From: an uncultured Caldilineaceae bacterium
GTDB taxonomy: Bacteria > Chloroflexota > Anaerolineae > Caldilineales > Caldilineaceae
Direction: 5' to 3'
Assembly (NCBI GenBank): GCA_958295915.1
Contig: OY282381.1
Span: forward strand, 642,722 to 706,721
Length of the DNA stretch: 64,000 bases
In this document: piece by piece, positions 3,115-56,400 of the stretch
How the letters are laid out: every line of letters starts with the position of its first letter
Numbering within the stretch: the first letter of the stretch is position 1
Made by a program: the position numbers and the translations under genes
The notes under the pieces: generated by a model
Told to the model about the DNA's origin: nothing
Seen by the model: only the letters and a program-made list of their open reading frames with translations
Databases searched by the model: none

Positions 3115-6100
3115 ATGCCAACTCTCACCCTCAAACCTACGCACAAGCCTATCCGGGCATACTACGCCGCGCTCGAGCGCTTCGACCGCCTCGGCATCAG
3201 CCCTGAAAGCGCGGCGCCCGCCGCTTTTCAGGCGCTGCTTGAACACTGCGCGCGGCAGTGCGCGTGGACGCTGGCGCCGGAACAGGCCATCGCGCCTCTG
3301 CTCGCAAGAGGCGCATCGAACACTGCGCGCGGCAAGCGGCGCATCGTGGTCGACGGCGCATTGATCGACGATTTCCAGTTGATCCATGGCATCTGGGAGG
3401 CGAAGGACATCCACGACGATCTGCTGTCTGAAGCGCGACGCAAGTTCGAGGCCGGCTATCCGGCGACAACATCCTCTTCCAGACGCCGCAACGCGCCATC
3501 CTGTGGCAGAACGGTCGGCAGCTGCTTGACGCGGACCTGGGCGACCCGTTGCAGCTGATCGAGACACTGGAAACCTTCTTCGGCTATCGTCCGCAGGAGT
3601 ACGCCGCCTGGGAGGAGGCGCTGGCGCAGTGCAAAGACAGAGTGCCGGATATCGGGCGCGGCCTGGCGCGCTTGATCCACAAGGAGCGGCAGAGCAACCG
3701 CCGCTTTGCCACGGCCTTTGGCGATTTTCTGGAGACATGTCGCCAATCGATCAACCCCCACCTCTCGGAAGCGGCGGTCGAGGAGATGCTGATACAGCAT
3801 CTGTTGACCGAGCGTCTGTTCCGCACTGTCTTCAGCAATCCCGACTTCACGCGGCGCAATGTCATCGCCAATGAGATCGAGAAGGTGATCGACGCGCTCA
3901 CATCGCAGTCGTTCAGTCGTCGTGATTTTCTCCACAGTCTGGATCGTTTCTACGTGGTCATCGAGCGCGTGGCCGCAACCATCAGCGATTTTTCGCAGAA
4001 GCAGCATTTTCTCAACACTGTCTACGAGCAGTTTTTCCAGGGCTTTTCGCTCAGGGTGGCGGATACGCATGGGATAGTCTACACGCCGCAGCCGATCGTC
4101 GATTTCATGGCGCAAAGCGTTGCCCACATCCTGCAGAGCGAGTTTGGGCGCTCGCTATCCGACCCCGGCGTGCATATCATCGACCCGTTTGTGGGCACGG
4201 GCAATTTCATCGTGCGCCTGATGCGGGAGATACGCCGGACCGCGCTGGAGGACAAATACAGGTCGGAGCTGCACTGCAACGAGGTGATGCTGCTGCCCTA
4301 CTACATCGCCAGCATGAACATCGAGCATGAATTTTATGCGGCGACGGGCGCGTATCAGCCCTTTGAAGGCATCTGCCTGGTGGATACCTTCGACCTGGCG
4401 GAGGACCGCCAGCTGCCGCTGTGCGCGCCTGAGAACACACAGCGCGCGGAGGTCCAGAAACAGACGCCGATGTTTGTGGTCATCGGCAATCCGCCTTACA
4501 ACGTCGGACAGGTCAACGAGAACGACAACAACAAGAACCGCAAATATGAGACGCTGGACAGACGGGTGGCGGAGACCTACGCGCACGATTCCAAGGCGAC
4601 CAATAAAAACGCGCTCTCCGACCCGTATGTGAAGGCGATACGCTGGGCAGCGGACCGCATTGGAGATGAGGGGATTGTCGCCTTTATCACCAACAACAGC
4701 TTTCTCGACGCTGTGGCGTTTGATGGCATGAGAAAACACCTGGCAGACGATTTCGATGCTCTGTACAGTCTCGATTTGGGCGGGAATGCGCGCAAGGGCT
4801 TGAAGGTCTCGGATGCCAATGTATTCGGCATTCGGGTGGGGGTAAGCATCAACCTGTTTGTGAAGCGTAGGGGCGGGCAACCACAAGGCCAGCTATCCCG
4901 TATCTTCTACTATCGAACCGACGATCTGTGGAACAAAAAGCGGAAATTCGACTTTCTGCATGAACGCCAACACGCAGGCAATATCGAGTGGCAAGAGATC
5001 AGGCCGGACAGGCGACACACCTGGCTGACAGAAGGACTTCACGCTGAATTCGAGAGCTTCATCCCCTTGGGAAGCAAGGAAGCGAAGGCGGCAAAAGGCG
5101 AGGCGGTGGATGTGATTTTTAAGGTGTATAGTCTTGGTGTCAATACGGCCCGTGATGCCTGGGCGTACAACTTCAACCGTGACGCGCTCACAGAGAACAT
5201 GGAGCGGATGATCGATTTCTACAATGAGCAGGTATTCAAGTGGGAACGACAGGCGGGCCGAGAAATAAACGTCGATGATTTTGTGGTCTATGATGACCGT
5301 CGGATTAGCTGGAGTGAGACACTTAAACGAAACTTGACACGAGGGAAAATCAGTGATTTTTCGCAAGAAAAGCTGAGGACATCACTCTATCGCCCGTTTA
5401 CGCAATCGAACCTTTACTTTGACCGAGCGGTGACCGAACGTGTGTACGTCTTCCCATCGATCTTCCCCACAGCGGAGACCGAAGAAGAGAACTGTGCCAT
5501 CTGGCTTAAAGTGGGGGCTGCCTGGCCAATGTTTGCGCTGTCCATCAACAAAATTCCCAATTCGCTGCCGCAAAGCGGTTCCCAATGCTTCCCCTTCTAC
5601 ACCTACGACGAGGACGGCGGCAACCGCCAGGAGAACATCACCGATTGGGCGCTGGCGCAGTTCCGCAGGCAGTACAGCGACGATTCTATCGGGAAATGGG
5701 ATATCTTCCATTATGTTTACGGTCTGCTGCATCATTCCGCCTATCGGCAGCGCTATCAAGCCAACCTCAAACGCGATCTGCCGCGCCTGCCCTTTGCCCC
5801 GGACTTCCGGGCCTTTGTCCAAGCCGGCGCGCGTCTGGCGAAAATCCACGTCGGCTATGAAGAGATGCCCGCCTATCCACTGACAGTCAGCGAAAACCCG
5901 GATCTGCAGCTTGATTGGCGCGTCGAGAAGATGAAGCTCTCCCGAGACAAAACGCAGATCCAATATAACGATTTCCTGATACTGGGCGGGATCCCAGCAA
6001 AAGCGTTACACTATCGGCTGGGCAACCGCTCGGCCCTGGAATGGGTTATCGACCAGTACCGGGTCAAGACAGACAAACGCAGCGGCATCGTCAACGATCC

Positions 6101-6212
6101 CAACCGCGCCGACGATCCGCAGTACATCGTCAACCTGATCGGAAAGGTTATCAGCGTCAGCCTGGAGACGGTGGAGATTGTCGAGGGCTTGCCGGCGTTG
6201 AGGACGGGTTGA
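3115..6212 (+). pseudogene. Type ISP-like restriction-modification protein, frameshifted copy 1
   Basis: Near-identical paralogue of the intact 1032-aa gene at 53421-56519. One base is missing around 3461-3463 (TATCCGGCGAC here, TATCCGCGCGAC in the intact copy); restoring it gives the same total length, 3099 nt. As read, an N-terminal piece ends at 3558 and the rest stays open from 3549 to 6212. Seen: PD-(D/E)XK-like nuclease motif (VDGALIDDF ... WEAKD) in the first piece; methyltransferase motifs DPFVGTGNF and NPPYN in the second. The segment 5156-5580 differs strongly from the paralogue although both flanks match closely, as expected for an exchanged target-recognition domain. It may be a true pseudogene, a phase-off state or a sequencing error. 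Confidence 0.85.
3292..3314 (+). repeat. Family A hairpin inside a coding sequence
   Basis: GCGCCTC-TGCTCGCAA-GAGGCGC, read in frame as APLLARGA in the N-terminal part of the restriction-modification gene. The same codon position in the paralogue (53597-53619) carries the repeat with its loop inverted. Confidence 0.85.
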
Positions 6213-6237
6213 GAACACAACGCAATGGCGCAAAGAT

Positions 6238-6325
6238 GCAAAGGCGCAAAGGAAAACCAATACAACGCAATGACGCAAAGAAAAATCAGGGAATTCCTTG
6301 CGTCCCTGCGCCTTCGCGCCTTTGC
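6238..6325. repeat. Inverted GCAAAGGCGC repeat after RM copy 1
   Basis: GCAAAGGCGC at 6238-6247 pairs with GCGCCTTTGC at 6316-6325; the interior has further CGCAAAG-like units. The same arrangement, followed by a CCCGCCCACAC stretch, follows RM copy 2 at 56527-56585, so the duplication seems to include it. It may end transcription in either direction. Confidence 0.65.
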
Positions 6326-6449
6326 GTTATTTTCTCATTCCCGCCCACACACCCTGAATTTACAATTTGACGGTTGCCGTCAGCCATGATAGTATTGGGA
6401 ATTATATACTTGACTGCACAAGGATTTCCGTGCGTTGCGTGTGAATATG

Positions 6450-6458
6450 TGGTATGAT
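6450..6458 (+). promoter_or_regulatory. Extended -10 promoter candidate for tnpB
   Basis: TGGTATGAT matches the extended -10 pattern TGnTATAAT, about 75 bp upstream of the tnpB start and inside the mobile element. No convincing -35 is seen. Confidence 0.35.
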
Positions 6459-6532
6459 GGAGATACTTCGAGAAGAGAAAAGCCCGTCAGTGCGGCAAAC
6501 ACTACGGGCTACGATCCACAAGGTCAGAACTT

Positions 6533-7711
6533 ATGGATACGCCCCAGAGTACCACACTCCACAAGACCTATCAAGAACGAGGCTACTGTTCGCGAGCTGG
6601 CTATGCTCGCATCCGTGAGGTATTGCGCTCTTGTTGCTGGCTCTACAATCGCTCCCTTGAACAGCGCAAGAATACCTATCTTTCTGATGGCAAGGGCATG
6701 AGTTTGTACACGCAGATGAAAGAGCTGACCCAGCTACGAAAGGAACAACAGTTCTGGCGAGATATAGGGATAACAGTTTCTCGCGGAGTCCTGGTACGAG
6801 TAGACAGGTCATGCAAGGCATTCTTTCGTAGGGTAAAAGCTGGGGAAAAGCCTGGTTATCCGCGCTTCAAGCCGCATCAACGCTATCAATGCATCGAACT
6901 GTCAGAAGTTACAGCGGGCATGGTGAAGGGCAATCGTATCAAGGTGAAGGGATTGTCTGTTATCAGAATACGGCCCAATCGTGCATTGCCAGCCAGTAGC
7001 CAGTTGAAAGCCTTGCGAATCGGTATGCATGGTCGCATCCTGACAGTCGATTTGGTATATGAAGAGGAAAGTGAGCCACTTACTTCTGTGGATACTGCGG
7101 TGGGCATAGATATGGGCGTAAATGAACGCATGACCTTCAGCGATGGGGAAACAGTATCCCGGCGCGTGATTGACAGAAGTAGAGAAACAAGCTTGCAACG
7201 CGCGATTTCCACAAAGAAGAAAGGAAGTAAGCGTAGAAGAAAGGCGGTATCCGCTTTTGCTTGTGAGAGGCGTAGGAATACAGTACGCAATCGTAATGAA
7301 TGCCATCGGTTGACTACTGCTATCGTGCGAAAATACCAGAAGATAGCGGTTGAGAAGTTGACAATCAAGAACATGTCGCGCAAGGGTGGCAATCGGAAAC
7401 GTGGCTTGAATCGCAGTATGATGGAACAGACATGGGGCATACTCTTTCAACAATTGCGCTACAAGGCAGAATGGGCCGGTAGACAATTCGCTGAAGTTGA
7501 CCCCCGCTATACATCCAAGACCTGTTCCCACTGCGATGAAGTAAGGAAAGAGAAGCTGGCGGTTTATCGGATATTCGAATGTTTGCGGTGTGGTCATACG
7601 GAAGATCGGGATACCAACGCCGCTAAAAATATTCAGAAACGCGGGTGGGAATATCCCGCACAGCCGGTTCCACCGGCTGAGAAAGATATGCTTGTGCAGT
7701 CAAGTATATAA
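6533..7711 (+). CDS. tnpB: TnpB RNA-guided nuclease / IS605 OrfB-family protein
   Basis: 392 aa TnpB, the family ancestral to Cas12 and known as omega-RNA-guided DNA nucleases. Seen: N-terminal helix-turn-helix-like region (NRSLEQRKNTYL), first RuvC aspartate in GIDMGVN near residue 193, RuvC glutamate in AVEKLTIKNM near 273, zinc finger CSHC ... CLRC, and third RuvC aspartate in DRDTNAAKNI near 359. All three catalytic residues are present, so it looks active. No tnpA lies beside it. In typical elements the omega RNA overlaps the 3' end of tnpB; here only 5 bp separate the stop from the element boundary, so such an RNA would have to lie mostly within the coding region. Start ATG at 6533; no strong Shine-Dalgarno. 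Confidence 0.9.
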   Translation: MDTPQSTTLHKTYQERGYCSRAGYARIREVLRSCCWLYNRSLEQRKNTYLSDGKGMSLYTQMKELTQLRKEQQFWRDIGITVSRGVLVRVDRSCKAFFRRVKAGEKPGYPRFKPHQRYQCIELSEVTAGMVKGNRIKVKGLSVIRIRPNRALPASSQLKALRIGMHGRILTVDLVYEEESEPLTSVDTAVGIDMGVNERMTFSDGETVSRRVIDRSRETSLQRAISTKKKGSKRRRKAVSAFACERRRNTVRNRNECHRLTTAIVRKYQKIAVEKLTIKNMSRKGGNRKRGLNRSMMEQTWGILFQQLRYKAEWAGRQFAEVDPRYTSKTCSHCDEVRKEKLAVYRIFECLRCGHTEDRDTNAAKNIQKRGWEYPAQPVPPAEKDMLVQSSI

Positions 7712-7795
7712 TTCCCATAGTATTACAATAATGCTGTTGATATCATAGACTTTGGCTGTATTGACTTTGCCTCTTGCATTACGCGCAGCAATCCA

Positions 7796-7915
7796 TCAAG
7801 CGTAGAACGCAGATATACAAACCAGGTTTGCGCCGAAACCGTCATATGCCTCTGGAGATGAGTCGGCGAAGCGCAACTCTCTCAGATTCAGGGTTGGGAT
7901 CTCTACTATAGCCAT
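7796..7915 (-). pseudogene. Possible N-terminal scrap of ureidoglycolate lyase-like protein
   Basis: About 39 codons from the ATG at 7913-7915 reading MAIVEIPTLNLREL then SPEAYDGFGANL, which resembles the start of ureidoglycolate lyase-family proteins (typically ...LTPEAFAPFG). It stops after ISAFYA. The rest of such a gene is not found. The frame is also open upstream to the family B repeat at 7994-8021. The similarity is from memory and weak; the stretch 7725-8062 otherwise shows no gene. Confidence 0.3.
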
Positions 7916-7993
7916 GTCTATGTAACAGTGATTCGAAGAGGATTCACCCTCCGAGCCACCGGCGGGGAATACAAAGGGCTCGGTTGCATGATA

Positions 7994-8021
7994 GCGCCCT
8001 AACAGTGGCGCGCAATACAAC
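7994..8021 (-). repeat. Hairpin repeat, family B
   Basis: On the minus strand GTTGTATTGCGCGCCACTGT followed by TAGGGCGC; stem GCGCC/GGCGC around an ACTGTTAG loop. It lies in the 340-bp gap before the ABC binding protein gene. Confidence 0.7.
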
Positions 8022-8062
8022 TTTTAATCGGACAGCTTGCACCAACATGAGGAAGGCAATCT

Positions 8063-9385: not shown

Positions 9386-9417
9386 AATCCGCTGCCGCGG
9401 TGTACTGTCAACGCAGG

Positions 9418-9442
9418 GGGAGGCTCTCTGCCTCCCTTTTTT
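9418..9442 (+). terminator. Rho-independent terminator after binding protein
   Basis: Stem GGGAGGC (9418-9424) / GCCTCCC (9430-9436) with a TCTCT loop and a run of six T (9437-9442), 33 bp after the stop codon of the binding protein gene. Confidence 0.85.
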
Positions 9443-9552
9443 CGTCTTTGGCGCATTTTTCAACTCTGTTTGCGACCGGATGCCAGGAGCGTGGGCGTAC
9501 GGCGGGAGGTCTGCGCCGGTTGGATTGGCTGGCGCGTTCCTGGCTATGGGTA

Positions 9553-9645
9553 GTGATAATGCGCCTCTGCTCGAAAGAGGCGCGTGATAATGCGCCTCTG
9601 CTCGAAAGAGACGCGTGATAATGCGCCTCTGTTCGAAAGAGACGC
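9553..9645 (+). repeat. Three tandem 31-bp copies of hairpin family A
   Basis: Units at 9553-9583, 9584-9614 and 9615-9645, each GTGATAATGCGCCTCTG plus loop and GAGRCGC, with an exact 31-bp period. Units 2 and 3 share a GAGACGC right arm; unit 3 has a GTTCGAAA loop. They sit 33 bp before the VOC start codon at 9678. Confidence 0.9.
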
Positions 9646-10359: not shown

Positions 10360-10389
10360 CGATGCGCCTCTGCTCGAAAGAGGCGCGTG
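10360..10389 (+). repeat. Hairpin repeat, family A
   Basis: GCGATGC then GCGCCTC-TGCTCGAAA-GAGGCGC, placed between the P450 scrap and the lactonase-like gene, 17 bp before its ATG. Confidence 0.9.
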
Positions 10390-12784: not shown

Positions 12785-12819
12785 TACGCGCATCTTCCGA
12801 GCAGAGGCGCCTTGTCAAC
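12785..12819 (-). repeat. Hairpin repeat, family A, reverse and degenerate
   Basis: On the minus strand GGTTGACAAGGCGCCTCTGC then TCGGAAGATGCGCGT: a full-length family A unit in reverse orientation with a damaged right arm, lying in the leader of the PhyH gene. Confidence 0.65.
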
Positions 12820-18997: not shown

Positions 18998-21196
18998 TCA
19001 TGGCAGCCGTAGGCGCGCCAATAGAACGTCAGGCTCCCAAACATTCAGTTGGACAGTCGGTTTCAGGGTCTCGGCGTCGTAGACGACCAACCGCAGCTCG
19101 TAATCGCCTGATAGGAGGTCGGTCGGAAAATCAAGCTGGACGACGGTATCGAACGGTTCGGATGGCCCCCCCTGACCAGTGGTCGTATGGTTCGCTTTCC
19201 ACAGGACAGCATCTTTTTGGTAGACCATTTCGGCTTCAGCATCGTATAGGCGCAGGGATATCGAATAATCAATATCCAATTCAGGGATGGTCTGCCATTG
19301 CAGGCCCACCCACAGAGAGCGATCCTGTTCCAGGTCAAGCAACTGTCGAAATGACAGCTGCTCGGCGCCTTGGCCCAAGGCGAGACCTTGGAGAGCTATG
19401 CCGCCATCGTAGTCGACTGTCAGCGGCTCCAGGTGTTCATAGAATGTCCAGGGGCGATCCAGGAGAATATCCGTATAGTTGTGGATTTGAAAATCGACAT
19501 ACGCGTCACTGCTGACGTAGCGGCCGTACTTGCCAAGCAGCGCGGCAATGCGTTCGGCTTCATCACCACTCCAGTCAATATCGTCATTCCAGTCCACAAC
19601 TTTCACAGTGGACAGGTTCTCTTGTACTGCCAGCGCAGATTCAATCGTCTGCGCCAAGTTGGGCATGGCCGTATGGAAAAGATGAGCTGGCGCCGTGCCT
19701 TGATAGAGAAAATCGAAACTATATTCTCGAAATTCCTCCGGCAGGAATAGCTGACGATAGCCGCCAGGAATCAAGTAGACGATGCCTGAATTGGGTGGCT
19801 CCGCGTTCATCATCCGGGATAAGTGAATCAACTCGGTTTGGTATATGCGGATGACTGCGGGCGTAGCTGCCCACTGATGGAAATAGGTCTGGTAGGTGAT
19901 CAGACCCTGAGCCAAGACCATTCCGCTAGCCACAGTTCCCACAGCAATGGCAGGTATCATTTTCCTGAAAAAGTTGAATGCGCGCCACTGTTGGGCGCGA
20001 TACCGCTCCCTCAAAAATCGGAACGCTTCCCACATGCCAACACCGACGAGCAGATAGGCAGCGGGCAGCATACCCATCATACGGATAGTGTTGGGCGGAT
20101 TCTCCAGGGCCAATACAGCAGGCAAGAGCATGACCGCCCACCAGAGAACAAGCAGTCGATATTCGGGTCGTCGCCAATGCCATACGGCCATGCCGATCCC
20201 CATCCAGAAAAAGAATGCTTCGAATGGATTAAGCAGAGGGCGACTATCGAAATTATAGGGCCACCACGGATCCCCGCGAACACCAAAAGCCAGCAGATGC
20301 TCCCACACGTTGCGCAGAAAGGCTCCCAGAGGGTCGCCCTGACTATGGCTAGGGTGGAAAATCCAGAGCTGACCGCTACGGGAAATAAAGTGTTCGGGAT
20401 GCAGAGCAAAATAGATAAGAAGGGGCGCGGCCACCGCGCCGGCCACGCCCAAAAACGGAAGAATCTTCGGCAGACTGGCCCGTACTCCTTCTGACAAACG
20501 TCTGGAAATGGAGCGAAGGTGGTTGAATGCGCCTCTGCTTGGAAGAGGCGCAGAGAGCAGAAAGCTCGCGCCGAAAAGCAAAAGCAGAAGGGGCACGAAA
20601 CGCGCGGCAATGTAGGTGTAGGGCAGCAGCCCCGTGCAGCCCCCCGCCAAAATGATTCGCCACCGGCTCCGTTGCCCCCATCCTGACCAGAGCAGGGCCA
20701 GACTAAGAGCGAGAAGCAGCGGTAGAAAATTCGCTCGGAACGCGGTCCGTCCAATGATCGTCTGCCCAAGAGAGACCGCCATCAGACTCGCGCCAATACC
20801 GCTGATCAGCAGGCCACGCCACGGGGTAGCCTGCCTGGTTTCAGAGTCTCTCCCAAAGAGAACCCATCCCAACCAGAAAACAGCGAAAACTGTGCCCACG
20901 CTGGCTAGAGCCGCGGACAAACGAATGGACAGCATTATGCGCCCCAAAAAAGGGACGAACGGGGCAATTGTATAGACAATCAGCCCTTCGCGCCCATTCC
21001 CTCCAGGGAAGAAAACAGCGTGCTTTCCTTGTAATACCTGGAGGGACTTTATACCATAGAACCCTTCATCCCAGTGGAGACCCGGCGGCACTTCAGCCAA
21101 CCGGTACAGACGCAGCGACACAGCGGCCACAGCCAACCCAAGCAGAATCACGGCTGTCAAGATCAGGCGTATCTGTTCGCTCTTTCCGACTTTCAT
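18998..21196 (-). CDS. GT39/ArnT-like membrane glycosyltransferase
   Basis: 732 aa polytopic protein resembling the dolichyl-phosphate-mannose/ArnT (PMT) glycosyltransferase superfamily: the N-terminal half has about ten hydrophobic segments, with the catalytic-loop acidic motif LHWDEGFYGIKSL after the first one; the C-terminal ~300 residues look extracytoplasmic. It would transfer a sugar from a lipid carrier. The frame is open upstream to 21334; the ATG at 21194-21196 begins closest to the first membrane helix but has a weak RBS. A family A repeat is read in frame as [11 protein letters not shown] (20520-20551) and a family B repeat at 19973-20002. Convergent with the ABC genes, no terminator seen between. 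Confidence 0.75.
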   Translation of the reverse strand: MKVGKSEQIRLILTAVILLGLAVAAVSLRLYRLAEVPPGLHWDEGFYGIKSLQVLQGKHAVFFPGGNGREGLIVYTIAPFVPFLGRIMLSIRLSAALASVGTVFAVFWLGWVLFGRDSETRQATPWRGLLISGIGASLMAVSLGQTIIGRTAFRANFLPLLLALSLALLWSGWGQRSRWRIILAGGCTGLLPYTYIAARFVPLLLLLFGASFLLSAPLPSRGAFNHLRSISRRLSEGVRASLPKILPFLGVAGAVAAPLLIYFALHPEHFISRSGQLWIFHPSHSQGDPLGAFLRNVWEHLLAFGVRGDPWWPYNFDSRPLLNPFEAFFFWMGIGMAVWHWRRPEYRLLVLWWAVMLLPAVLALENPPNTIRMMGMLPAAYLLVGVGMWEAFRFLRERYRAQQWRAFNFFRKMIPAIAVGTVASGMVLAQGLITYQTYFHQWAATPAVIRIYQTELIHLSRMMNAEPPNSGIVYLIPGGYRQLFLPEEFREYSFDFLYQGTAPAHLFHTAMPNLAQTIESALAVQENLSTVKVVDWNDDIDWSGDEAERIAALLGKYGRYVSSDAYVDFQIHNYTDILLDRPWTFYEHLEPLTVDYDGGIALQGLALGQGAEQLSFRQLLDLEQDRSLWVGLQWQTIPELDIDYSISLRLYDAEAEMVYQKDAVLWKANHTTTGQGGPSEPFDTVVQLDFPTDLLSGDYELRLVVYDAETLKPTVQLNVWEPDVLLARLRLP
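19973..20002 (+). repeat. Hairpin repeat, family B, inside a coding sequence
   Basis: GTTGAATGCGCGCCACTGTT then GGGCGCGATAC. It lies in frame within the glycosyltransferase gene (transcribed on the other strand), showing that family B has also entered coding DNA. Confidence 0.65.
20520..20551 (+). repeat. Hairpin repeat, family A, inside a coding sequence
   Basis: GGTTGAATGC, then GCGCCTC-TGCTTGGAA-GAGGCGC. Read in frame on the minus strand as [11 protein letters not shown], in a loop after the hydrophobic segment FVPLLLLLFGASFLL of the glycosyltransferase. Confidence 0.88.
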
Positions 21197-22273: not shown

Positions 22274-22306
22274 GGTTGAATGCGCCTCTGCTTGGAAGAG
22301 GCGCGT
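22274..22306 (+). repeat. Hairpin repeat, family A
   Basis: GGTTGAATGC, then GCGCCTC-TGCTTGGAA-GAGGCGC and GT, three bases after the phosphoesterase stop. The following stretch to 22643 has no gene; it contains an ATTCGATGGAGTGATATTCG near-repeat and the ftsH promoter. Confidence 0.9.
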
Positions 22307-24639: not shown

Positions 24640-24671
24640 GTTGCAACGCGCCTCTGCTCGGACGAGGCGCG
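24640..24671 (+). repeat. Hairpin repeat, family A
   Basis: GTTGCAACGC, then GCCTC-TGCTCGGAC-GAGGCGC, between the ftsH stop and its terminator. Confidence 0.85.
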
Positions 24672-24747: not shown

Positions 24748-24779
24748 GTTGAATGCGCCTCTGCTCGAAAGAGGCGCGT
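24748..24779 (+). repeat. Hairpin repeat, family A
   Basis: GTTGAATGC, then GCGCCTC-TGCTCGAAA-GAGGCGC and GT, 40 bp before the next gene. With the copy at 24640 it brackets the ftsH terminator. Confidence 0.92.
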
Positions 24780-26647: not shown

Positions 26648-26680
26648 TGTTGAATGCGCCTCTGCTGGAAGAGGCGCGTA
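26648..26680 (+). repeat. Hairpin repeat, family A
   Basis: TGTTGAATGC, then GCGCCTC-TGCTGGAA-GAGGCGC (loop one base short). It lies between the T-box terminator and the trpE start codon. Confidence 0.88.
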
Positions 26681-28262: not shown

Positions 28263-28289
28263 ATGCGCCTCTGCTCGGAAGAGGCGCGC
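28257..28289 (+). repeat. Hairpin repeat, family A, supplying the trpE stop
   Basis: GGTTGAATGC, then GCGCCTC-TGCTCGGAA-GAGGCGC. The TGA within GGTTGAATGC is the trpE stop codon. Confidence 0.93.
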
Positions 28290-28351: not shown

Positions 28352-29452
28352 ATGACACAGAAGAAAAGAATCCTCACCGGCGACCGGCCAACGGGCAAGC
28401 TACATTTGGGCCACTATGTGGGCAGTCTGCAGTATCGGCTGGCATTTCAGGAGGAGTATGAATGCTTTTTCATCATAGCTGATCTGCATATGCTGACGAC
28501 GAAACCGTCCAAAGAGGACATCTCTCAGATCGGGGAAAACGCCCGCGAGATCGTTCTCGATCACCTGGCGATTGGCATCGATCCAGAGAAAGTAAGGTTC
28601 TATCTGCAGTCGGCGGTGCATGAAATCTACGAGATGCAACTGATTCTCAGTGGCATGGTGACGGTAGAGCGCCTGCAGCAACTGCCCACAATCAAAGATA
28701 TGGCCAGTGCCGCTGGATTGGAGCAGATGCCATATAATCTGCTCGGCTATCCGGTTCTGCAAGCCGCGGACATACTCATGCCCCGGGCGCATCTGGTGCC
28801 GGTGGGTAGGGACAACGAATCCCACATCGAGATCAGCCGGCAGATCGCCCGCCGCTTCAATAACGCCTACGCCGAAGTTTTTCCCTTGCCGGATGCGCAT
28901 ATCGTCGGCGGCACGCTCGTGGGCGCCGATGGCCAGGCCAAAATGAGCAAGAGTCTGGGCAATGCCATTCTTCTCAGCGATGACTCGGAAACGGTCAGGA
29001 AACGGGTACTGAGTATGTACACCGACCCCAACCGCATCCGGGCCGATATTCCCGGCACTGTCGAAGGCAACCCGGTTTTTATCTATCACGATAGGTTCAA
29101 CCCCAACAAGGCAGAAGTGGAAGAGCTGAAGAGCCGCTACCGGGCAGGCGCTGTCGGCGATGTGGAGGTGAAGACGAAGCTATACGCCGCCTTGGAGAAC
29201 TTCCTAAAGCCGGTCCGTGAACGCCGGGCATTCTATGCCGAACAGACCGGTTTCGCCGACCAGTTGCTCTACGAGGGCACCCAACGGGCACAGGAAGAAG
29301 CCCGATTTACGCTGATGGAAATGAAGAAGGCGATGGGGCTTAGCGGTGTGTGGAACCGCATTCGCCGCGCGAATGAACGCCGGCAAAAGAGGCTGGCAAA
29401 GGCGGCAGCCGGAGATGCGTTGAATGCGCCTCTGCCGAGCAGAGACGCGTAG
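28352..29452 (+). CDS. trpS: Tryptophanyl-tRNA synthetase
   Basis: 366 aa class I aminoacyl-tRNA synthetase charging tRNA-Trp. Seen: HIGH-equivalent LHLGHYVGS near residue 17, KMSKS in [11 protein letters not shown] near 200, and the Trp-binding region HMLTTK. ATG at 28352 follows GGGAGTG. It lies in the T-box operon, so the enzyme that charges the sensed tRNA is itself controlled by its charging. Its last ten codons ([10 protein letters not shown]) and TAG stop are encoded by a family A repeat, an apparent C-terminal extension. Confidence 0.96.
29418..29451 (+). repeat. Hairpin repeat, family A, loop inverted, forms TrpS C-terminus
   Basis: CGTTGAATGC, then GCGCCTC-TGCCGAGCA-GAGACGC and GT. 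The loop is the reverse complement of the TGCTCGGCA loop seen at 30893, while the flanks keep forward orientation. It is translated as the TrpS tail and contains its stop. Confidence 0.88.
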
Positions 29453-30066: not shown

Positions 30067-30094
30067 ATGCGCCTCTGCCCGGAAGAGGCGCGTA
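30061..30094 (+). repeat. Hairpin repeat, family A, supplying the trpG stop
   Basis: AGTTGAATGC, then GCGCCTC-TGCCCGGAA-GAGGCGC and GT; the TGA is the trpG stop, and the right arm ends 19 bp before the next start codon. Confidence 0.92.
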
Positions 30095-30113: not shown

Positions 30114-31271
30114 ATGAGCGACTGGGTTGAAGGCGCCTCTGCTCGGCAGAAGCGCGTAACACAGGCCATTCACGGCTATCTCACCAGCGCCGCGTCCAGT
30201 CATTTTCGCCATCAGGAGGTGACGATCCTCGATCAGTGGCAGGGGCGTGACAATCTGCTCTGGCGGGTGCGCGGCAGCGACGGCAGCGACGCGGTCGTAA
30301 AGCTGTTCACCGACGCTGGTCAGGCCCGTAGTCGTCGCCAATTCAGCGGCCAGGAGCAGTTCGCGGCCGCTGGCCTCGCGCCGGAGCCCCTCTGGCACGA
30401 TCGCTACCCGCAAGGCCTGCCTTGCCAGATTCTGATCTATCGCTGGGTAGAGGGCGAAGCGTTACAGTTGACAGACCCGCGCCAGCAGACGGCTCTCGCC
30501 GAAACGGTGGCCCACATCCATCGCGCCGACGGGGGCGCGGTGCGGCGTTTCAGCCCGCGTCCATTTAATTTGCTCACATTCTGGCAGATATGGCAGGCGG
30601 GTGAAGCCCAGCTGCAGACGTGGTTGTCGCGCATGTCTGCCCCGTTGCTGACAGAGCTTTTTTCAAACCTATGGGCGGCGGCCCACCGGATGCTGGCCAC
30701 AGCCCTACCGCTGTTCGGAGAGACGCCCCCCACAGCGGTCCACGGGGATCTGGCGGTAGAAAACGGGCTGTTCCGGAGCGGCCGGGCGCTACTCGTAGAC
30801 TGGGAGTTCTTCGGGCTAGGCGATCCGGCCCAGGAGATCGCCCGCTTTCTCTTCTACAGCGGAGACGCTTGGCCGCAGGGTAGGCAAGAGGAGTTGAATG
30901 CGCCTCTGCTCGGCAGAGGCGCGTGCTGGTGGGAAGCGTATCGATCTGGCAATGCCGACCCCAGCCTGTCACACCGAGTCGAGCTATACATGCGGTTGTT
31001 CAACTTTCAGGCGGCCACATTTCTGCTGGAGGGCATTCGCCAGGGGGCCATCGCGTCTCCTTCGGCTACGGCTTCTGTGGCCGATGATCGAACTACGCAG
31101 TACCGCTCCTTTCTCATCGACGCCTTGACTGTCGCCGTGCGCCGCTCCCTGGACATGTGGGGATTGCCGCCGCTGGGCAAGGCAGACGGGTTGTTACTGG
31201 GAGATGAACTCGAGCATATAATGAACTTTCACCTGGCCGAATCACGCGCATCCGATCCGGCCGGCAATTGA
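30114..31271 (+). CDS. APH/choline kinase-fold phosphotransferase in the trp operon
   Basis: 385 aa protein of the aminoglycoside phosphotransferase/choline kinase/homoserine kinase fold. Seen: a nucleotide-binding NLLWRVRGSDGSDAVVKLF with the ATP lysine near residue 67, catalytic loop AVHGDLAVENGLF (HxDxxxxN) and metal-binding VDWEFFGLGDP. ATG at 30114 follows GGAG; an upstream in-frame ATG at 30096 is possible. Two family A repeats are read in frame (residues about 4-15 and 260-271), the second between the catalytic domain and the C-terminal helices. Substrate unknown; position between trpG and trpD suggests a link with aromatic metabolism or chance operon capture. Confidence 0.8.
   Translation: MSDWVEGASARQKRVTQAIHGYLTSAASSHFRHQEVTILDQWQGRDNLLWRVRGSDGSDAVVKLFTDAGQARSRRQFSGQEQFAAAGLAPEPLWHDRYPQGLPCQILIYRWVEGEALQLTDPRQQTALAETVAHIHRADGGAVRRFSPRPFNLLTFWQIWQAGEAQLQTWLSRMSAPLLTELFSNLWAAAHRMLATALPLFGETPPTAVHGDLAVENGLFRSGRALLVDWEFFGLGDPAQEIARFLFYSGDAWPQGRQEELNAPLLGRGACWWEAYRSGNADPSLSHRVELYMRLFNFQAATFLLEGIRQGAIASPSATASVADDRTTQYRSFLIDALTVAVRRSLDMWGLPPLGKADGLLLGDELEHIMNFHLAESRASDPAGN
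30124..30158 (+). repeat. Hairpin repeat, family A, in the kinase N-terminus
   Basis: GGTTGAAGGC, then GCCTC-TGCTCGGCA-GAAGCGC and GT; read in frame as VEGASARQKRV, 30 bp downstream of the previous copy. Confidence 0.85.
30893..30924 (+). repeat. Hairpin repeat, family A, inside the kinase gene
   Basis: GTTGAATGC, then GCGCCTC-TGCTCGGCA-GAGGCGC and GT; read in frame as [10 protein letters not shown]. Confidence 0.92.
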
Positions 31272-35466: not shown

Positions 35467-35498
35467 TGTTCAATGCGCCTCTGCCCGCAAGAGGCGCA
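35467..35498 (+). repeat. Hairpin repeat, family A
   Basis: TGTTCAATGC, then GCGCCTC-TGCCCGCAA-GAGGCGC, beginning at the base after the aroC stop and ending 17 bp before the aroKB start. Confidence 0.9.
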
Positions 35499-37650: not shown

Positions 37651-37660
37651 GTGTTGCATT

Positions 37661-37785
37661 GCGCGCCACTGTAGTAGGGCGCGCCACTGTAGAGCGCGCC
37701 ACTGTAAGGCGCGCCACTGTTAGAGCGCGCCACTGTGTAGGGCGCGCCACTGTAGAGCGCGCCACTGTAGGGCGCGCCACTGTAG
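37661..37785 (+). repeat. Eight-copy tandem array of the family B core
   Basis: GCGCGCCACTGT occurs at 37661, 37679, 37694, 37709, 37725, 37742, 37757 and 37772, separated by 3-6 variable bases (AG, TAG, GTAG, etc.), period 15-18 bp. Neighbouring units can pair GCGCGCC with GGCGCGC. The array ends 14 bp before an extended -10 box, so it lies directly upstream of the promoter for the next gene. Confidence 0.92.
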
Positions 37786-37798
37786 TTCATTCCGACCG

Positions 37799-40273: not shown

Positions 40274-40306
40274 GTCGCAATGCGCCTCTGCTCGCAAGAG
40301 GCGCAA
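40274..40306 (+). repeat. Hairpin repeat, family A
   Basis: GGTCGCAATGC, then GCGCCTC-TGCTCGCAA-GAGGCGC, four bases after the peptidase stop. Confidence 0.9.
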
Positions 40307-47841: not shown

Positions 47842-47876
47842 GGTTGCAATGCGCCTCTTTCGAGCAGAGGCGCGCT
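47842..47876 (+). repeat. Hairpin repeat, family A, loop inverted
   Basis: GGTTGCAATGC, then GCGCCTC-TTTCGAGCA-GAGGCGC. The loop is the exact reverse complement of TGCTCGAAA while the GGTTGCAATGC flank keeps its forward position. Confidence 0.9.
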
Positions 47877-50166: not shown

Positions 50167-50297
50167 TGACAGATCCTTTGCTATTACAGATTTATGATTG
50201 ACATATCAATAGGTGATGAATGCTTTGCGCGGCGGGTGTTCACTCTCCTCTGCCTACGCATTGCTCATTCAAATTACACCAACACGGCTCCCTTTTT

Positions 50298-51155
50298 CTA
50301 AATCTGCAAGATGGCCTCCTGCGTGTAGCGGTCCGTACTGAGTTGTGGCGCCGCGGGATAACTACCCAACATCTTGACAAACGCCGCCCGGTTGAGCAGG
50401 CCCAAAAGCGCAGCGCTACAGTCCGGGTCTTGCCAGTGACCCTCGAAATCCAGATAAAATACATACTGCCAGGGCCGGTTGCGCCGGGGGCGGCTCTCCA
50501 GCTTGGCGAGATTGATGTTGCGATCGGCAAACTCGCCGAGACAGGCGTACAACGCGCCGGGGCTGTGTGGCGTGGCAAAGACGAGGGAGGTCTTGGACAT
50601 TTCCGTCCGTTCCGCTTCGCCTCTGCCGATGATAAAGAAACGGGTAAAGTTGTAGTGCAGGTCCTCGATGCCCTGCTGGACGATCTCCAGGTCATAAATC
50701 TCTGCGGCCAGAGAACTGGCGATCACGCCCACATTCGACTCTGGGTTCTCCGCCAGTTCTTTGGCGCTGCCGGCTGTATCATACCAGGGAATGGCTGCGT
50801 AGCCGTTGCGGTTGAGAAAACCTTCGCACTGCGCCAACGCTTGGGGATGGCTGCGCACCTGCTCAATTTTGTCGCCATTGCCGGGCACTGTCAGCAGGTT
50901 GTGCTGCACGCGCAAAAGGATTTCGCCCTGAACCCGAAAGTCGTGATCCAGCAGCAGGTCATAGGCTTTGTTGACGCTACCGGCGAGAGAATTCTCCACC
51001 GGCACGACTCCCACTGTGGCGCGCTCTTCGTCCAGAGACGCGAAGATATTCTCAAATGTCCGACAGGGCGCCGTATCGACCTCGGCTCCGAACTGTTGAC
51101 GGATGGCTTCTTCGGAGTATGCGCCATGCTCTCCCTGAAATGCGACAATTGACAT
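50298..51155 (-). CDS. pheA: Prephenate dehydratase
   Basis: 285 aa enzyme making phenylpyruvate, with a C-terminal ACT domain for Phe feedback. Seen: [20 protein letters not shown] at the N-terminus, [31 protein letters not shown] (TRF motif) and the ACT region [20 protein letters not shown] with [21 protein letters not shown] (ESRP motif). No chorismate mutase domain, which is supplied separately by aroH. Start at ATG 51155 after GGAG; open frame continues to 51203. Confidence 0.95.
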
Positions 51156-51263
51156 CGGACTGCTCCATGTTGCGAATTGTGTATTGCGTACGGGGACATT
51201 CATCGTCAGACATCCCTCGCGCCCAATCTCTCATCCCCAAACACCTGATCCTCATCGACTTCA

Positions 51264-51683
51264 TCAGCCTGTCAGTTGCTCATCGATCCAACGGTTGAGT
51301 TCGTCTATATCGATCTCTTCGGCGAGGCTTTTGTCCGGGCGCAGACTTTGGGCTTCGTTCAGATAGATATGCTGAATTTGCGACTGCGGCATGTCGGTAT
51401 TCCAGTGCAGCAAAATGCGAATGCATCTGGGAAGACTGTTCGGCACTTCCATCTCATGCCCACAGAGGAGCGGCACTTCCATCCATCCCAACTGACGGGC
51501 TGCCAGCGCCGGATACTGGCTGACTACATCCTGGGTGGTAGTGAAAATGACACTCGCTACATCTTCGGAGTCGATTTTGTTCAGCCGAATTATCAATGCC
51601 AATAGTTCTCGGGTTGCCCGCAAAACTTCTTCCGGCGTGTCCCGTTCAACTGTTGTCGCTCCCCGCACTCCTCGACAGATCAC
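51264..51683 (-). CDS. aroH: Chorismate mutase, AroH type
   Basis: 139 aa mutase of the Bacillus AroH (trimeric, beta-alpha barrel) class. Seen: [20 protein letters not shown] with the conserved arginine, [31 protein letters not shown] and [19 protein letters not shown] start at 51681-51683 with GGAGAG upstream. First biosynthetic gene after the leader ORF and terminator at 51793-51820. Confidence 0.94.
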
Positions 51684-51787
51684 AGCTCTCTCCAGTTTCT
51701 CTCGAAAGGGACTGCAATCACTACTGAGGAGCAGACCCTTTCGAGATGGCGCTTTCTACTTCAGCGAGAACGCTTCTATACGAACAC

Positions 51788-51820
51788 AAAAAAAAGCGTG
51801 GAGAATCGTCTCCACGCTTT
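51788..51820 (-). terminator. Attenuator-type terminator before aroH
   Basis: Read on the minus strand: AAAGCGTGGAGA, CGAT loop, TCTCCACGCTTT (perfect 12-bp stem, 51793-51820), then eight U (A at 51788-51795 on the plus strand, overlapping the stem end). It sits 24 bp after the stop of the aromatic-rich leader ORF and 104 bp before aroH. Confidence 0.9.
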
Positions 51821-51844
51821 GAGTGTCTTTGACGCTGACTGTAC

Positions 51845-52069
51845 CTACACAGCCCAACGCTCCTCAACCAGCGGAGACGGCTGATTTATGCCGAAATAAT
51901 AACCGAACCAAAAGTTGCCAAAAGAAAACCCGCGCCACTCATAGCGCAGATTACTGGACAACAATATCTCGGCCGCGGTCGGTCCGTCCAACAGGTTGAT
52001 AGGCAACAGTGAGTCGTCCTCGCTACAGATCAGATCGGCAATTGATTTTGGCGCTTTTTCAGTGCTCAC
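51845..52069 (-). CDS. Aromatic-rich leader ORF (probable attenuation peptide)
   Basis: 74 codons from GTG 52067-52069 to TAG. Residues 43-59 read YEWRGFSFGNFWFGYYF: ten aromatic residues (F5, Y3, W2) in 17, with a further W72. Preceded by a near-consensus promoter (52123-52151) and GAGGACG; followed by a perfect terminator, then aroH-pheA-aroF-tyrA-aroA-aroE-trpB-trpA. The segment TCTCCGCT (51870-51877 complement), just after the aromatic run, can pair with AGC..GGAGA of the terminator left arm, giving an antiterminator when ribosomes stall. Much longer than enterobacterial leader peptides. An alternative is a small secreted or modified peptide. Confidence 0.7.
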   Translation of the reverse strand: MSTEKAPKSIADLICSEDDSLLPINLLDGPTAAEILLSSNLRYEWRGFSFGNFWFGYYFGINQPSPLVEERWAV

Positions 52070-52122
52070 TTTGTCAAGTCGTCCTCGCTGGGCAATCGAT
52101 TGGGATTCTCTCTACGATGAAA

Positions 52123-52151
52123 AGAATACCACATTGAAAATTCTTTGTCAA
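52123..52151 (-). promoter_or_regulatory. Promoter of the reverse aromatic operon
   Basis: On the minus strand TTGACA (52146-52151), 17-bp spacer, TATTCT (52123-52128). Transcription would start about 45 nt before the leader ORF. Confidence 0.88.
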
Positions 52152-52395
52152 TTCTTGCGCGCGTAAAACGCGTAAAAAAGCGAAAGATAAAGTTGCGCTC
52201 ACGCTCTTTTACAAGAGCAATCGATCATGAATCTGCCCGATGCGTCACAATACCTTCAAGATGATGAAGAGAACCACCTTATCTGCCCGCTTCTCGTCTT
52301 GCAGATCCATTTCTGTTCCCCGACAATAGCAAACAAGCGTTATCAAAATGAACGAGCATCAGCTCGACAACAGGAACATACGCAGGAGGAGAATC

Positions 52396-53166
52396 ATGCG
52401 GAATTCATTTTCACTGGATGGTAAAGTCGCATTGATCACCGGCGGCAACGGCGGCATCGGCCGCGCCATCGCATTGGGGTACAAAGAGATGGGCGCGACG
52501 GTCATTGCCAGCGGACGCAATTCGCAGAAAAACGCGACAATGGCGCAGGAGTTGGGCGACGGCCACGCGGTCATATCCCTGGACGTGCGCGACGAAGAGG
52601 CGGTCAATCAGGCGGTGACCGCAATCGTTGAAAAGTACGGCAGCCTCGACATTCTCGTCAACAACGCCGGCATCGCCCGCCGGATCAATATTCTCGATAT
52701 GGATACAGACGACTGGCACGCTGTCATCGACACCCATCTGAACGGCAGTTTCTACTGCGCCAAAGCCGCGGCCAAAGCGATGGTCAACGCCGGCAAGGGC
52801 GGTAAAATCATCAACATCGGTTCGATGTATTCGCTGCTCGGGCCGCCCAATGTCGTCAACTACGCGGCGGCCAAAACCGGGCTCCTCGGCCTGACCCGCG
52901 GGCTGGCCGTGGAGCTGGCGGTTCACAACATTCAGGTGAACGCCCTGCTGCCGGGCTGGCACAAGACCGATCTCAACCGTGCGCTGCTCGACGGCCCTCT
53001 GGGTGAAGAGATACGCCACAAAACGCCCGCCCGACGTCTGGGCACGACAGACGACCTGGCCGGCGCTGCCATCTTCCTGGCCTCTGCCGCAGCCGATTTC
53101 GTCACCGGGAGCAGTGTGGTGGTGGATGGCGGCTACTCGATTATGGACCGCCGCTGGGAAGATTGA
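52396..53166 (+). CDS. SDR, gluconate 5-dehydrogenase-like
   Basis: 256 aa classical SDR closest in style to gluconate 5-dehydrogenase/2-keto-3-deoxygluconate oxidoreductases: FSLDGKVALITGGNGGIGRA at the N-terminus, NNAGIARR, IGSMYSLLG and YAAAKTGL (catalytic Ser-Tyr-Lys), QVNALLPGWHKTDLN. AGGAGGAG directly precedes the ATG at 52396. Divergent from the leader ORF; the 225 bp upstream of 52350 contain no gene I can support, only a short GCTCTT/AAGAGC hairpin at 52203-52218. Its TGA lies in a family A repeat. Confidence 0.88.
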   Translation: MRNSFSLDGKVALITGGNGGIGRAIALGYKEMGATVIASGRNSQKNATMAQELGDGHAVISLDVRDEEAVNQAVTAIVEKYGSLDILVNNAGIARRINILDMDTDDWHAVIDTHLNGSFYCAKAAAKAMVNAGKGGKIINIGSMYSLLGPPNVVNYAAAKTGLLGLTRGLAVELAVHNIQVNALLPGWHKTDLNRALLDGPLGEEIRHKTPARRLGTTDDLAGAAIFLASAAADFVTGSSVVVDGGYSIMDRRWED

Positions 53167-53193
53167 ATGGGCCTCTGCTCGCAAGAGGCGCGT
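53161..53193 (+). repeat. Hairpin repeat, family A, supplying the SDR stop
   Basis: GATTGAATGG, then GCCTC-TGCTCGCAA-GAGGCGC and GT; TGA at 53164-53166 ends the SDR gene. The stretch from here to 53420 has no gene. Confidence 0.9.
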
Positions 53194-53420
53194 CCCAGAT
53201 TTTTGGGGAGAGGAACAGAGTGTCCGCATCAGGATTTTCAGGATGGAAGGATACACAGGATGATTTGCCTTGTTCAACGGCCTGCGCGCAAGTGGTTGTG
53301 GAGACGCTACGCGGGTTTGCAGTTGGCAATAAGAAGGGCGACAATGACAGTGCGGCCATCTGATCTTGGGAGGCGCCCATCTGAATTTGCCACCTGCGCC
53401 GCAGCGGTACGATAGCGCAC

Positions 53421-56400
53421 ATGCCAACTCTCACCCTCAAACCTACGCACAAGCCCATCCGGGCATACTACGCCGCGCTCGAGCGCTTCGACCGCCTCGG
53501 CGTCAGCCATGAAAGCGCGGTACGCTCCGCCTTTCAGGCGCTGCTCGAACACTGCGCGCGGCAGTGCGCCTGGACCCTGGTACCCGAACACGCCATCGCG
53601 CCTCTTGCGCGCAGAGGCGCATCGAACACTGCGCGCGGCAACAAGCGCATCATAGTCGACGGCGCCCTGATCGACGATTTCAAGTTGACGCATGGCATCT
53701 GGGAGGCGAAGGACATCCACGACGACCTGCTGACCGAAGCGCGGCGCAAGTTCGAGGCCGGCTATCCGCGCGACAACATCCTCTTCCAGACGCCGCAACG
53801 GGCGATCCTGTGGCAGAACGGTCGGCAGCTGCTTGACGCCGACCTGAGCGACCCGGCGCAGCTGATACAGATACTCGAAGCCTTCTTCAGCTACCTTCCG
53901 CAGGAGTACGCCGCCTGGGAGGAGGCCGTCGCGCAGTGCAAAGACAGAGTGCCCGACATTGGGCGCGGCCTGGCGCGCTTGATCCACAAGGAGCGGCAGA
54001 GCAACCGCCGCTTTGCCACGGCCTTTGCCGGTTTTCTGGAGAAATGTCGCCAATCGATCAATCCGAATCTCTCTGAAGCGACGGTCGAGGAGATGCTGAT
54101 ACAGCATCTGTTGACCGAGCGTCTGTTCCGCACCGTCTTCAGCAACCCCGACTTCACGCGCCGCAATGTCATCGCCAATGAGATCGAGAAGGTGATCGAC
54201 GCGCTCACATCGCAGTCGTTCAGTCGGCCTGATTTTCTCCACAGTCTGGATCGTTTCTACGTGGTCATCGAGCGCGTGGCCGCAACCATCAGCGATTTTT
54301 CCCAGAAGCAGCATTTTCTCAACACCGTCTACGAGCAGTTTTTCCAGGGCTTTTCGGTCAGGGTGGCGGATACGCATGGCATCGTCTACACGCCGCAGCC
54401 GATCGTCGATTTCATGGCGCAAAGCGTTGCCCACATTCTGCAAACGGAGTTTAACCGTTCGCTATCCGACCCCGGCGTGCATATCATCGACCCGTTCGTG
54501 GGCACGGGCAACTTCATCGTGCGCCTGATGCGGGAGATACGCAGGACCGCGCTGGAGGACAAGTACAGGTCGGAGCTGCACTGCAACGAGGTGATGCTGC
54601 TGCCCTACTACATCGCCAGCATGAACATCGAGCATGAATTTTACGCCGCGACCGGCGCGTATCAGCCCTTTGAAGGCATCTGTCTGGTGGACACCTTCGA
54701 TCTGGCGGAAGACCGCCAGCTGCCGCTGTTCGCGCCTGCGAACGCGCAGCGCCTGGAGACGCAGAAGCCGCCGATGTTCGTGGTCATCGGCAATCCGCCT
54801 TACAACGTCGGACAGGTCAACGAGAACGACAACAACAAGAACCGCAAATACGAGACGATGGATGCGCTGGTTGCGGAGACCTACGCGCAAGCCTCGAAGG
54901 CGACCAATAAGAACAAACTCTCCGACCCGTATGTGAAGGCGATCCGCTGGGCGTCGGACCGCATTGGCGAGGAAGGGATTGTCGCCTTTATCACCAACAA
55001 CAGCTTTCTCGACGCTGTGGCCTTTGATGGCATGAGAAAGCATCTGGCAGACGATTTCGATACCCTGTACAGTCTCGATTTGGGCGGGAACGCGCGCAAG
55101 GGCTTGAAGGTATCGGATGCCAATGTATTCGGCATTCGGGTGGGGGTAAGCATCAACCTGTTTGTGAAGCGTAGGGGCGGACAACCACAAGGCCAGCTAT
55201 CTCGCATCTATTACTATCGAACCGACGATCTGTGGAACAAACAGCGGAAATTCGACTTTCTGCATGAACGTCAACACGCAGGCAATATAGAGTGGCGAGA
55301 GATCAGACCGGACAGGCGACACACCTGGCTGACAGAGGGACTTCACGCCGAATTTGAGACCTTCATCCCGCTGGGAAGCAAGGAAGCGAAGGCGACAAAA
55401 GGCGAGGCGGTGGATGTGATATGTAAGGTGTATAGCCTCGGTGTCAATACGGCCCGTGATGTTTTGGCTTACTCGTTCGATCTCAAGCTGCTGCAAGAGC
55501 GAGTTGGCGCATTTATCGAAATATACAACAGCGCCGTTGACCGCAAGAGAAGGCATGACCCCAACGACCCTGTTGAAAGTTTTATTGATACGAACGACCC
55601 ACGCATCAAATGGACTCGTCAGGTTAAGGCATCACTTAAAAAATTGGAGTCAAGCAACTATGACGATTCGCACTTTCGCACCTCGTTGTATCGTCCGTTC
55701 TGTCAGAAATACCTCTACTTCGATACCTTCTGGAATGAAGAGCGCTATCAACAGCATCGAATTTTTCCCACACCGAAGACCGAAACGGAAAATCGAGTGA
55801 TTTGTGTTGCTGGCATCGGTGATAGAAAAGGCTTTGGTTGTCTTATAACAAACATGATTCCCGCCTTGGATTTAGCCTTTGAAAAAACCCAATGCTTCCC
55901 CTTCTACGTCTACGACGAGGACGGCAGCAACCGCCGCGAAAATATCACCGATTGGGCCTTGGCACGGTTCCGCAGGCAGTACAGCGACGATTCTATCGGG
56001 AAATGGGACATCTTCCATGCCATCTACGCTATCCTCCACCATCCGCGCTACCGCGAGCGCTACCAGGCCAACCTCAAGCGCGACCTGCCGCGCCTGCCCT
56101 TTGCCCCGGACTTCCGGACCTTTGCCCAAGCCGGCGCGCGCCTGGCCGAAATCCACGTCGGCTATGAAGAGATGCCCGCCTATCCGCTGACAGTCAGCGA
56201 AAACCCGGATCTGCCGCTCGATTGGCGCGTCGAGAAGATGAAACTCTCCCGAGACAAAACACAGCTCCAATATAACGATTTCCTGACACTGGGCGGGATT
56301 CCAGCAAAAGCGTTACACTATCGGCTGGGCAACCGCTCGGCCCTGGAGTGGATCATCGACCAGTACCGCGTCAAGACAGACAAACGCAGCGGCATCGTCA

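Follow-up and report, generated by a model that had tools for sequence, protein, structure and literature searches.

How can two copies of one repeat, lying at the same codons of two paralogous genes, carry their central bases in opposite orientations while the bases on either side stay the same? The question is raised by a stretch of the genome of an uncultured Caldilineaceae bacterium (assembly GCA_958295915.1, contig OY282381.1, positions 642,722 to 706,721; hereafter the window, 64,000 nucleotides in all), in which an initial annotation, made from the letters alone, had noticed a short hairpin repeat whose loop inverts within fixed flanks, and had proposed that the loop is turned in place by template switching or by a site-specific recombinase. 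The repeat is a dispersed 30-base-pair (bp) palindromic element, and we consider it probable that its 7-nucleotide (nt) loop has been inverted in place repeatedly, through template switching by DNA polymerase between the 8-bp arms during replication. Loop inversion in this dispersed hairpin element is real and genome-wide: the copies belong to a single family in which the flanks stay fixed and loops occur as reverse complements, and both orientations of the loop are found in an insertion of the element common to 20 paralogous N6-methylase genes.

The element reads GTTGAAT-GCGCCTCT-N7-AGAGGCGC and forms a hairpin of two 8-bp arms, GCGCCTCT and AGAGGCGC, around the 7-nt loop, which is also the predicted fold of the element as single-stranded DNA. 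The initial annotation was correct about the hairpin but not about its geometry, which it gave as a 9-bp loop on 7-bp stems; its 9-mer TGCTCGCAA (3299-3307) includes the closing T-A pair. The whole genome (5,064,531 bases, one contig) contains 178 copies with exact arms, and outside this genome one copy each was found in four of the 20 other genomes searched, all four being congeners. The window and 88 stretches around known copies, 607,408 bases together, were scanned for orientation; they include 166 of the 178 exact-arm copies, the remaining 12 lying outside, and hold 240 copies with at most one arm mismatch, while 26 sites with two or three arm mismatches were kept out of the orientation count. 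Polarity was set by the flanks alone: a profile fitted to them while loop and arms were masked settled on GTTGAAT ahead of the hairpin and G behind it. Flanks were clear in 218 of the 240 copies, with 171 loops forward, 46 inverted and one ambiguous, so that about one in five classifiable copies (46/217) has an inverted loop in unflipped flanks; the 22 copies of unclear flanks, outside that count, comprise 19 forward and three inverted loops. The commonest, canonical loop, GCTCGAA, stands forward 92 times, and its exact reverse complement TTCGAGC is found in forward flanks 34 times. These two differ at seven of seven positions, and therefore ordinary point mutation does not connect them; neither the plain reverse nor the plain complement of the canonical loop appears in the loop tally of the examined copies. 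The inversion of the loop between fixed flanks, as first reported, is thus borne out at all four sites originally named and throughout the genome. Those four sites, and the two genes concerned, are as follows (window positions).

3115 to 6212, plus strand: first N6-methylase paralogue, in two reading frames (3115-3558 and 3549-6212)
3292 to 3321, minus strand: element in the first methylase gene, loop flipped (GCTCGCA, 3300-3306); an in-frame insertion relative to the congeners, its loop being the exact reverse complement of the loop in four unflipped paralogues
29419 to 29448, plus strand: element with flipped loop GCCGAGC (core 29426-29448); within the examined set this variant is forward only at 30133 and 30900, at distances of 0.7 and 1.5 kb
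47844 to 47873, plus strand: element in forward flanks (TTGCAAT), its loop flipped (TTCGAGC; core 47851-47873)
53421 to 56519, plus strand: second N6-methylase paralogue, 1032 amino acids
53598 to 53627, minus strand: element in the second methylase gene, at codons matching those in the first, with an unflipped loop (TGCGCGC, 53606-53612)

In the two methylase genes the repeat occupies the same codons between the same flanking bases, and the loop of the second copy (TGCGCGC) is the reverse complement of that of the first (GCTCGCA) with one mismatch, just as had been noticed at the outset. The opposition of the two loops was correctly seen, but by the GTTGAAT consensus both elements lie in reverse, and it is the first copy, not the second, that is flipped. 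The inverted loops said to lie in forward flanks near 29418 and 47842 are present as GCCGAGC and TTCGAGC.

The strongest comparison comes from the methylase genes, since 20 close paralogues of one large N6-methylase gene are found in this single genome, two in the window and 18 elsewhere. The open frames of most of them are about 1020-1130 codons long and N6-methylase domains are present in proteins of the family; six more distant methylase paralogues also exist, without the insert. Alignment places a 30-bp in-frame insertion of ten codons, GCGCCTCT-N7-AGAGGCGC-ATCGAAC, of the same length as the element itself, at one point in all 20 paralogues, although it is rearranged in one of them (2492552). 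The insertion is missing from all 12 congener loci, each read on the correct strand, and the matched stretch measures 327 nt in the nine closest congener matches as against mostly 357 nt in the paralogues of this genome. Among the 120 protein matches listed, 15 come from this contig, every one of them with the insert, and none of the others exceeds 78% identity, in a genome collection that may omit close records; of these 105 other homologous proteins among the matches listed, 99 have insert-free spacing, four have unrelated residues there and two are unreadable. Most simply, the insertion preceded the spread of the methylase family.

Within this family the loop is flipped in five paralogues (645836, which is the first copy of the window, 2642888, 2786290, 4310063 and 5063111) and unflipped in 15. 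All five flipped loops are exact reverse complements of GCTCGCA, the loop that four unflipped paralogues carry forward, and they thus keep the loop of the methylase family rather than the genome-majority GCTCGAA; independent point mutation, the alternative that the initial annotation had set against inversion, fails on this point. Trees were built from 19 rows with the element cut out, the row own_3751915 having been dropped for a huge branch in the first tree, probably because most of that row is non-homologous. Parsimony gives four changes of loop state on the 600- and 1150-nt trees and three on the 2900-nt tree, and a single flipped clade is rejected on all of them (approximately unbiased test, p 0.004, 1.4e-6 and 9.8e-86, respectively). 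As the insertion is shared by 20 paralogues and absent from the 12 congener loci, and both orientations are scattered over the tree, the loop was likely turned after the insertion, in agreement with the in-place inversion first proposed, and the trees point to several such changes. The encoded residues are APLLARGA in the flipped genes and APLARRGA, APLASSGA and similar in the unflipped ones, so the predicted replacement between APLLARGA and APLARRGA is indeed found. Three of the five flipped copies lie in open frames of 1038, 1055 and 1131 codons, and the other two are in genes that are either broken or situated at the end of the contig. The element is missing from a 21st, truncated methylase copy (4074686), apparently through deletion between two copies of CGAACACTGCGCG, which flank it in other paralogues.

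The same pattern is found when the methylase family is set aside. A collapsed set was formed without this family, without six members of a seven-copy segmental family and without copies at most 120 bp from a kept one, the polarity margin being the sole requirement, and its 194 places comprise 151 forward and 43 inverted loops. Eight loop variants are found inverted (GCTCGAA, GCTCGCA, GCTTGGA, ACTCGAA, GCTCGGC, GCTCAGA, GATCGAA and GCTCGCT), of which GCTCAGA, GATCGAA and GCTCGCT occur within this set in the flipped state only, and 34 of the 43 flipped places share the single loop TTCGAGC. Rare loops can be compared with their neighbours: the three occurrences of GCTCGGC in the examined set, flipped at window position 29426 and forward at 30133 and 30900, all fall within 1.5 kb, and GCTCGCA is present forward and flipped only 187 bp apart (contig 2923961 and 2924148). 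In the flipped copy at 5063288 the loop-closing mismatch is the same, and in the same arm, as in the unflipped 3272692 and 732439, as if nothing but the seven loop bases had turned. This mismatch, the retention of their own loop by the methylase genes and the local GCTCGGC trio favour turning in place over the import of a foreign core. Pairing of the arms extends past the 8 bp in 16 of 41 flipped copies vs 28 of 158 unflipped copies, the methylase family aside (Fisher p 0.0056); the longer pairing may be cause or effect, as switching could also lengthen arms. Flipped copies have fewer mutations in the loop than forward copies and about as many in the flanks; flipped loops therefore look younger, and flipping may be recent, may prefer intact elements, or some flipped elements may have spread. 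The raw difference between strands is 17/113 flips on the plus strand vs 24/86 on the minus strand (p 0.03).

Template switching could produce this pattern in a few steps. While the first arm is being copied, the nascent strand would anneal to the complementary arm in the opposite strand, the loop would be copied from that strand, and synthesis would then return at the second arm, leaving arms and flanks unchanged and the loop reversed, with no need for a dedicated enzyme. In non-coding copies such a change would be near neutral, and in the methylase genes it would swap a few residues of the 10-residue insert. When the 20 paralogues were compared in all 190 pairs, in-place inversions of 5-40 nt came to light at just two sites, namely the 7-nt loop and a 14-nt stretch between GCGCGCAG and CTGCGCGC in paralogue 2492552; these two sequences form an 8-bp inverted repeat that differs from the arms of the element. 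As different arms and a different spacer gave the same outcome, these data may point to a mechanism that needs arms and not a particular sequence, and the inversion at other arms favours template switching over a dedicated recombinase. This 14-nt inversion adjoins the element and yields a new mirror copy of the element core.

Several observations weigh against template switching as an explanation, or against the counting of repeated flips. The inverted repeat AGATGCTG-ATA-CAGCATCT of the methylase genes is flipped in none of 16 exact-arm copies (the screen itself was blind to 3-nt spacers), and selection may conceal flips in this repeat, since each would alter a residue. A second hairpin family, GGGCAGGC-ACAAG-GCCTGCCC-CTAC, recognized in two congeners (200 kb each), also has 8-bp arms, with a 5-nt loop, and is flipped in only six of 619 exact copies in 16 congeners (613 unflipped), one of the six overlapping an unflipped match with a flank on both sides. 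The 8-bp arms are shorter than those of the yeast cases discussed below. Template switching should also make arms more perfect, and flipped copies have perfect arms only slightly more often than unflipped ones (37/46 vs 112/171, p 0.07; without the methylase genes 33/41 vs 110/158, p 0.24). Flips are less frequent among variant loops than among canonical ones (9/71 vs 34/123, p 0.019), and the loop GCTCGAG is flipped in 0 of 13 copies, neither of which is predicted by a blind process. Flip state shows no association with presumed replication direction, for three assumed termini and an origin assumed at the contig start. Finally, tree shapes differ between the 5' part and the whole of the methylase gene; recombination among paralogues is therefore likely and the number of flips uncertain, and gene conversion between them could look like repeated flipping.

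The congener family serves as a control for flip frequency. It reaches up to 163 exact copies per genome, and the genome studied here has one exact copy of it in each orientation. Copies of our element with exact arms and the canonical loop number 63 forward and 28 flipped (28/91, to be set against 6/619), and therefore frequent flipping is not automatic for repeats with 8-bp arms; the two families differ in loop length, sequence and host, and the contrast gives no cause. Loss of a hairpin-handling nuclease was considered as a cause of the frequent flips and rejected: 17 of 17 genomes have XseA (TIGR00237) above cut-off, and the same 17 show only partial matches to SbcD (TIGR00619), below its cut-off, so that neither sets this genome apart. 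The XseA match falls in two pieces (approximately model positions 1-185 and 187-383) in all 16 congeners and in one piece in this genome, as if the congener genes carried extra residues in their middle. In one congener (G024) a longer repeat surrounds GCCCCTGC-ACAAG-GGAGGGCC.

Flipped elements might instead be a second lineage, in which the loop was turned once or a few times and reversed-loop elements then spread, and the sharing of TTCGAGC by 34 of the 43 collapsed flipped places, together with the less mutated state of flipped loops, is what such a history would leave. The methylase family has one shared insertion point, however, and yet its loop state varies among paralogues; flips affect eight loop variants, and some lie next to a forward copy of the same rare loop; at the thresholds used, comparison of extended flanks found no duplicated flipped place, and no extended flank common to a flipped copy and any other copy, outside the methylase family. 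We regard this history as unlikely. A site-specific recombinase that recognizes the arms as its sites and turns the loop, in the manner of phase-variable switches, would account for a flipped fraction far above that of the congener family and for the apparent importance of loop sequence; the second inversion in the methylase family, though, used other arms and a 14-nt spacer, and a recombinase synapse would hardly fit where arms of 8 bp are only 7 nt apart. Y1_Tnp, the sole recombinase family searched for, was not found in this genome. Template switching would fit the sequences better, and we hold a recombinase to be very unlikely. A related and bolder idea would make the element a dedicated loop-flipping module, in which a lineage factor turns the loops of intact elements far above background and the 20 methylase paralogues possess a compact, reversible protein switch; this seems to us quite unlikely.

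Import of the core by ectopic gene conversion, in which another copy pairs in reverse via the palindromic arms and donates its core, would explain why flipped loops are nearer the family consensus than unflipped loops. The five flipped methylase loops nevertheless represent the variant of the methylase family and not the commonest loop of the genome, and arms of 8 bp are short for homologous recombination, which together make this route most improbable. Hairpins can also mislead polymerases in library preparation, and an assembly or sequencing artefact must be weighed; but the flips differ between paralogues that are unlike elsewhere in their sequence too, long open frames contain three of the five flipped copies in the methylase family, and flips track arm pairing and loop variant, so that we give an artefact hardly any credence. 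Repeated inversion in place by template switching therefore remains the reading that we prefer.

Repetitive extragenic palindromic (REP) sequences, which are short dispersed extragenic hairpins with hundreds of copies and tandem groups, resemble the element in general form. A GTAG-type foot is not found beside the hairpin of our element, the flank profile being GTTGAAT on one side and G on the other, and the congeners' GGGCAGGC family has a CTAC/GTAG foot in most copies read, which we take to be a REP-type motif. As a mover of the element, a Y1 transposase was considered and rejected, none being found in this genome or in eight congeners, while the family was detected in five of 14 control genomes. 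Rickettsia palindromic elements are, like ours, described both between genes and in frame within genes (PMC2229807), and our element has such an in-frame insertion into a protein gene (30 bp, ten codons, 20 close paralogues). The Rickettsia elements are 105-146 bp long as against 30 bp here, and the section on them does not mention loop flipping (PMC2229807).

Inversion of this kind is itself already known from yeast genes, plastids and bacterial rRNA, and what is new here is the setting in a dispersed repeat and the frequency. In genes of yeast (Saccharomyces cerevisiae), inversion of spacers between inverted repeats has been ascribed to template switching, the spacer turning in place and recurrently between short perfect arms, with arms mostly unchanged and coding residues altered (PMC8604942). 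Our element likewise shows a reverse-complemented spacer with unchanged arms and flanks and recurrent change on the tree (three to four changes, with gene conversion possible). The cases described in yeast involve arms longer than 9 bp, spacers of 2-5 bp and ten unrelated genes (PMC8604942), unlike the single dispersed 30-bp family with 8-bp arms, a 7-nt loop and more than 40 flipped places of this genome. In rRNA hairpins, including those of bacteria, loops, some of 7-8 nt, are reported inverted at perfect stems, for which an interstrand template switch was suggested; these inversions are described as rare and lie in a conserved RNA, in contrast to the common flips of a dispersed repeat (PMC8794818). 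Small inversions in plastids, where a hairpin loop can turn one way and back again between fixed stems, in many cases close to the end of a gene, are presented as single loci and not as a repeat family (PMC6824564). Among the open-access papers listed in literature searches, no title or abstract opening described loop flips in a dispersed bacterial repeat.

Hairpin loop inversion has usually been reported one locus at a time. In this one genome almost 200 hairpins of a single family serve as replicates, their flank polarity gives an internal reference, and the sequence itself can show how arm length, loop sequence, strand and age bear on loop inversion. Why two families with 8-bp arms should differ as much as 28/91 and 6/619 is a testable puzzle. 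In addition, a site of this kind may gain seven neighbouring differences in one event, and not through a run of adaptive substitutions.

Within the window, three of 22 copies are inverted (those with a 7-nt loop and at most one arm mismatch). The remaining copies and the two control repeats are listed below; the reversed copy at 12788-12810 is a wholly reversed element and not a loop flip.

993 to 1015, plus strand: element core, loop forward, one arm mismatch
3784 to 3802, plus strand: control inverted repeat AGATGCTG-ATA-CAGCATCT in the first methylase gene, unflipped
9561 to 9645, plus strand: three tandem element cores with a 31-bp period, loops forward
10364 to 10386, plus strand: element core, loop forward
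12788 to 12810, minus strand: element core in reverse, loop forward relative to its own flanks, one arm mismatch, weak flank score
15057 to 15079, plus strand: element core, loop forward
20529 to 20551, plus strand: element core, loop forward, variant GCTTGGA
22282 to 22304, plus strand: element core, loop forward, variant GCTTGGA
24648 to 24670, plus strand: element core, loop forward, one arm mismatch
24755 to 24777, plus strand: element core, loop forward
26656 to 26677, plus strand: element core with a 6-nt loop, GCTGGA, outside the 22
28265 to 28287, plus strand: element core, loop forward
30069 to 30091, plus strand: element core, loop forward
30133 to 30155, plus strand: element core, loop forward, variant GCTCGGC, one arm mismatch
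30900 to 30922, plus strand: element core, loop forward, variant GCTCGGC
35475 to 35497, plus strand: element core, loop forward
40282 to 40304, plus strand: element core, loop forward
53169 to 53191, plus strand: element core, loop forward, one arm mismatch
54091 to 54109, plus strand: control inverted repeat AGATGCTG-ATA-CAGCATCT in the second methylase gene, unflipped

No Rfam family matched the 64-kb window at gathering scores. As to the position of the element relative to genes, 59 of 199 copies lie within 100 nt past the end of a same-strand frame vs 421 of 2161 random positions, a weak count, as 114 of the 199 are near a stretch edge; at 16 of the 199, an upstream open frame of 100 codons or more ends on the TGA within GTTGAAT. 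Tandem arrays with all loops forward are formed by nine copies at 33-bp spacing (contig 2961716-2962002) and by the three copies at 31-bp spacing in the window (9561-9645). Between 4.3 and 5.06 Mb of the contig almost no copies of the element were seen beyond the methylase genes, to which the choice of stretches among the copies listed may contribute. A separate tandem array, of approximately 15-bp units GGCGCGCCACTGTAG, occupies window positions 37659-37798, with related units at 19980 and 33398.

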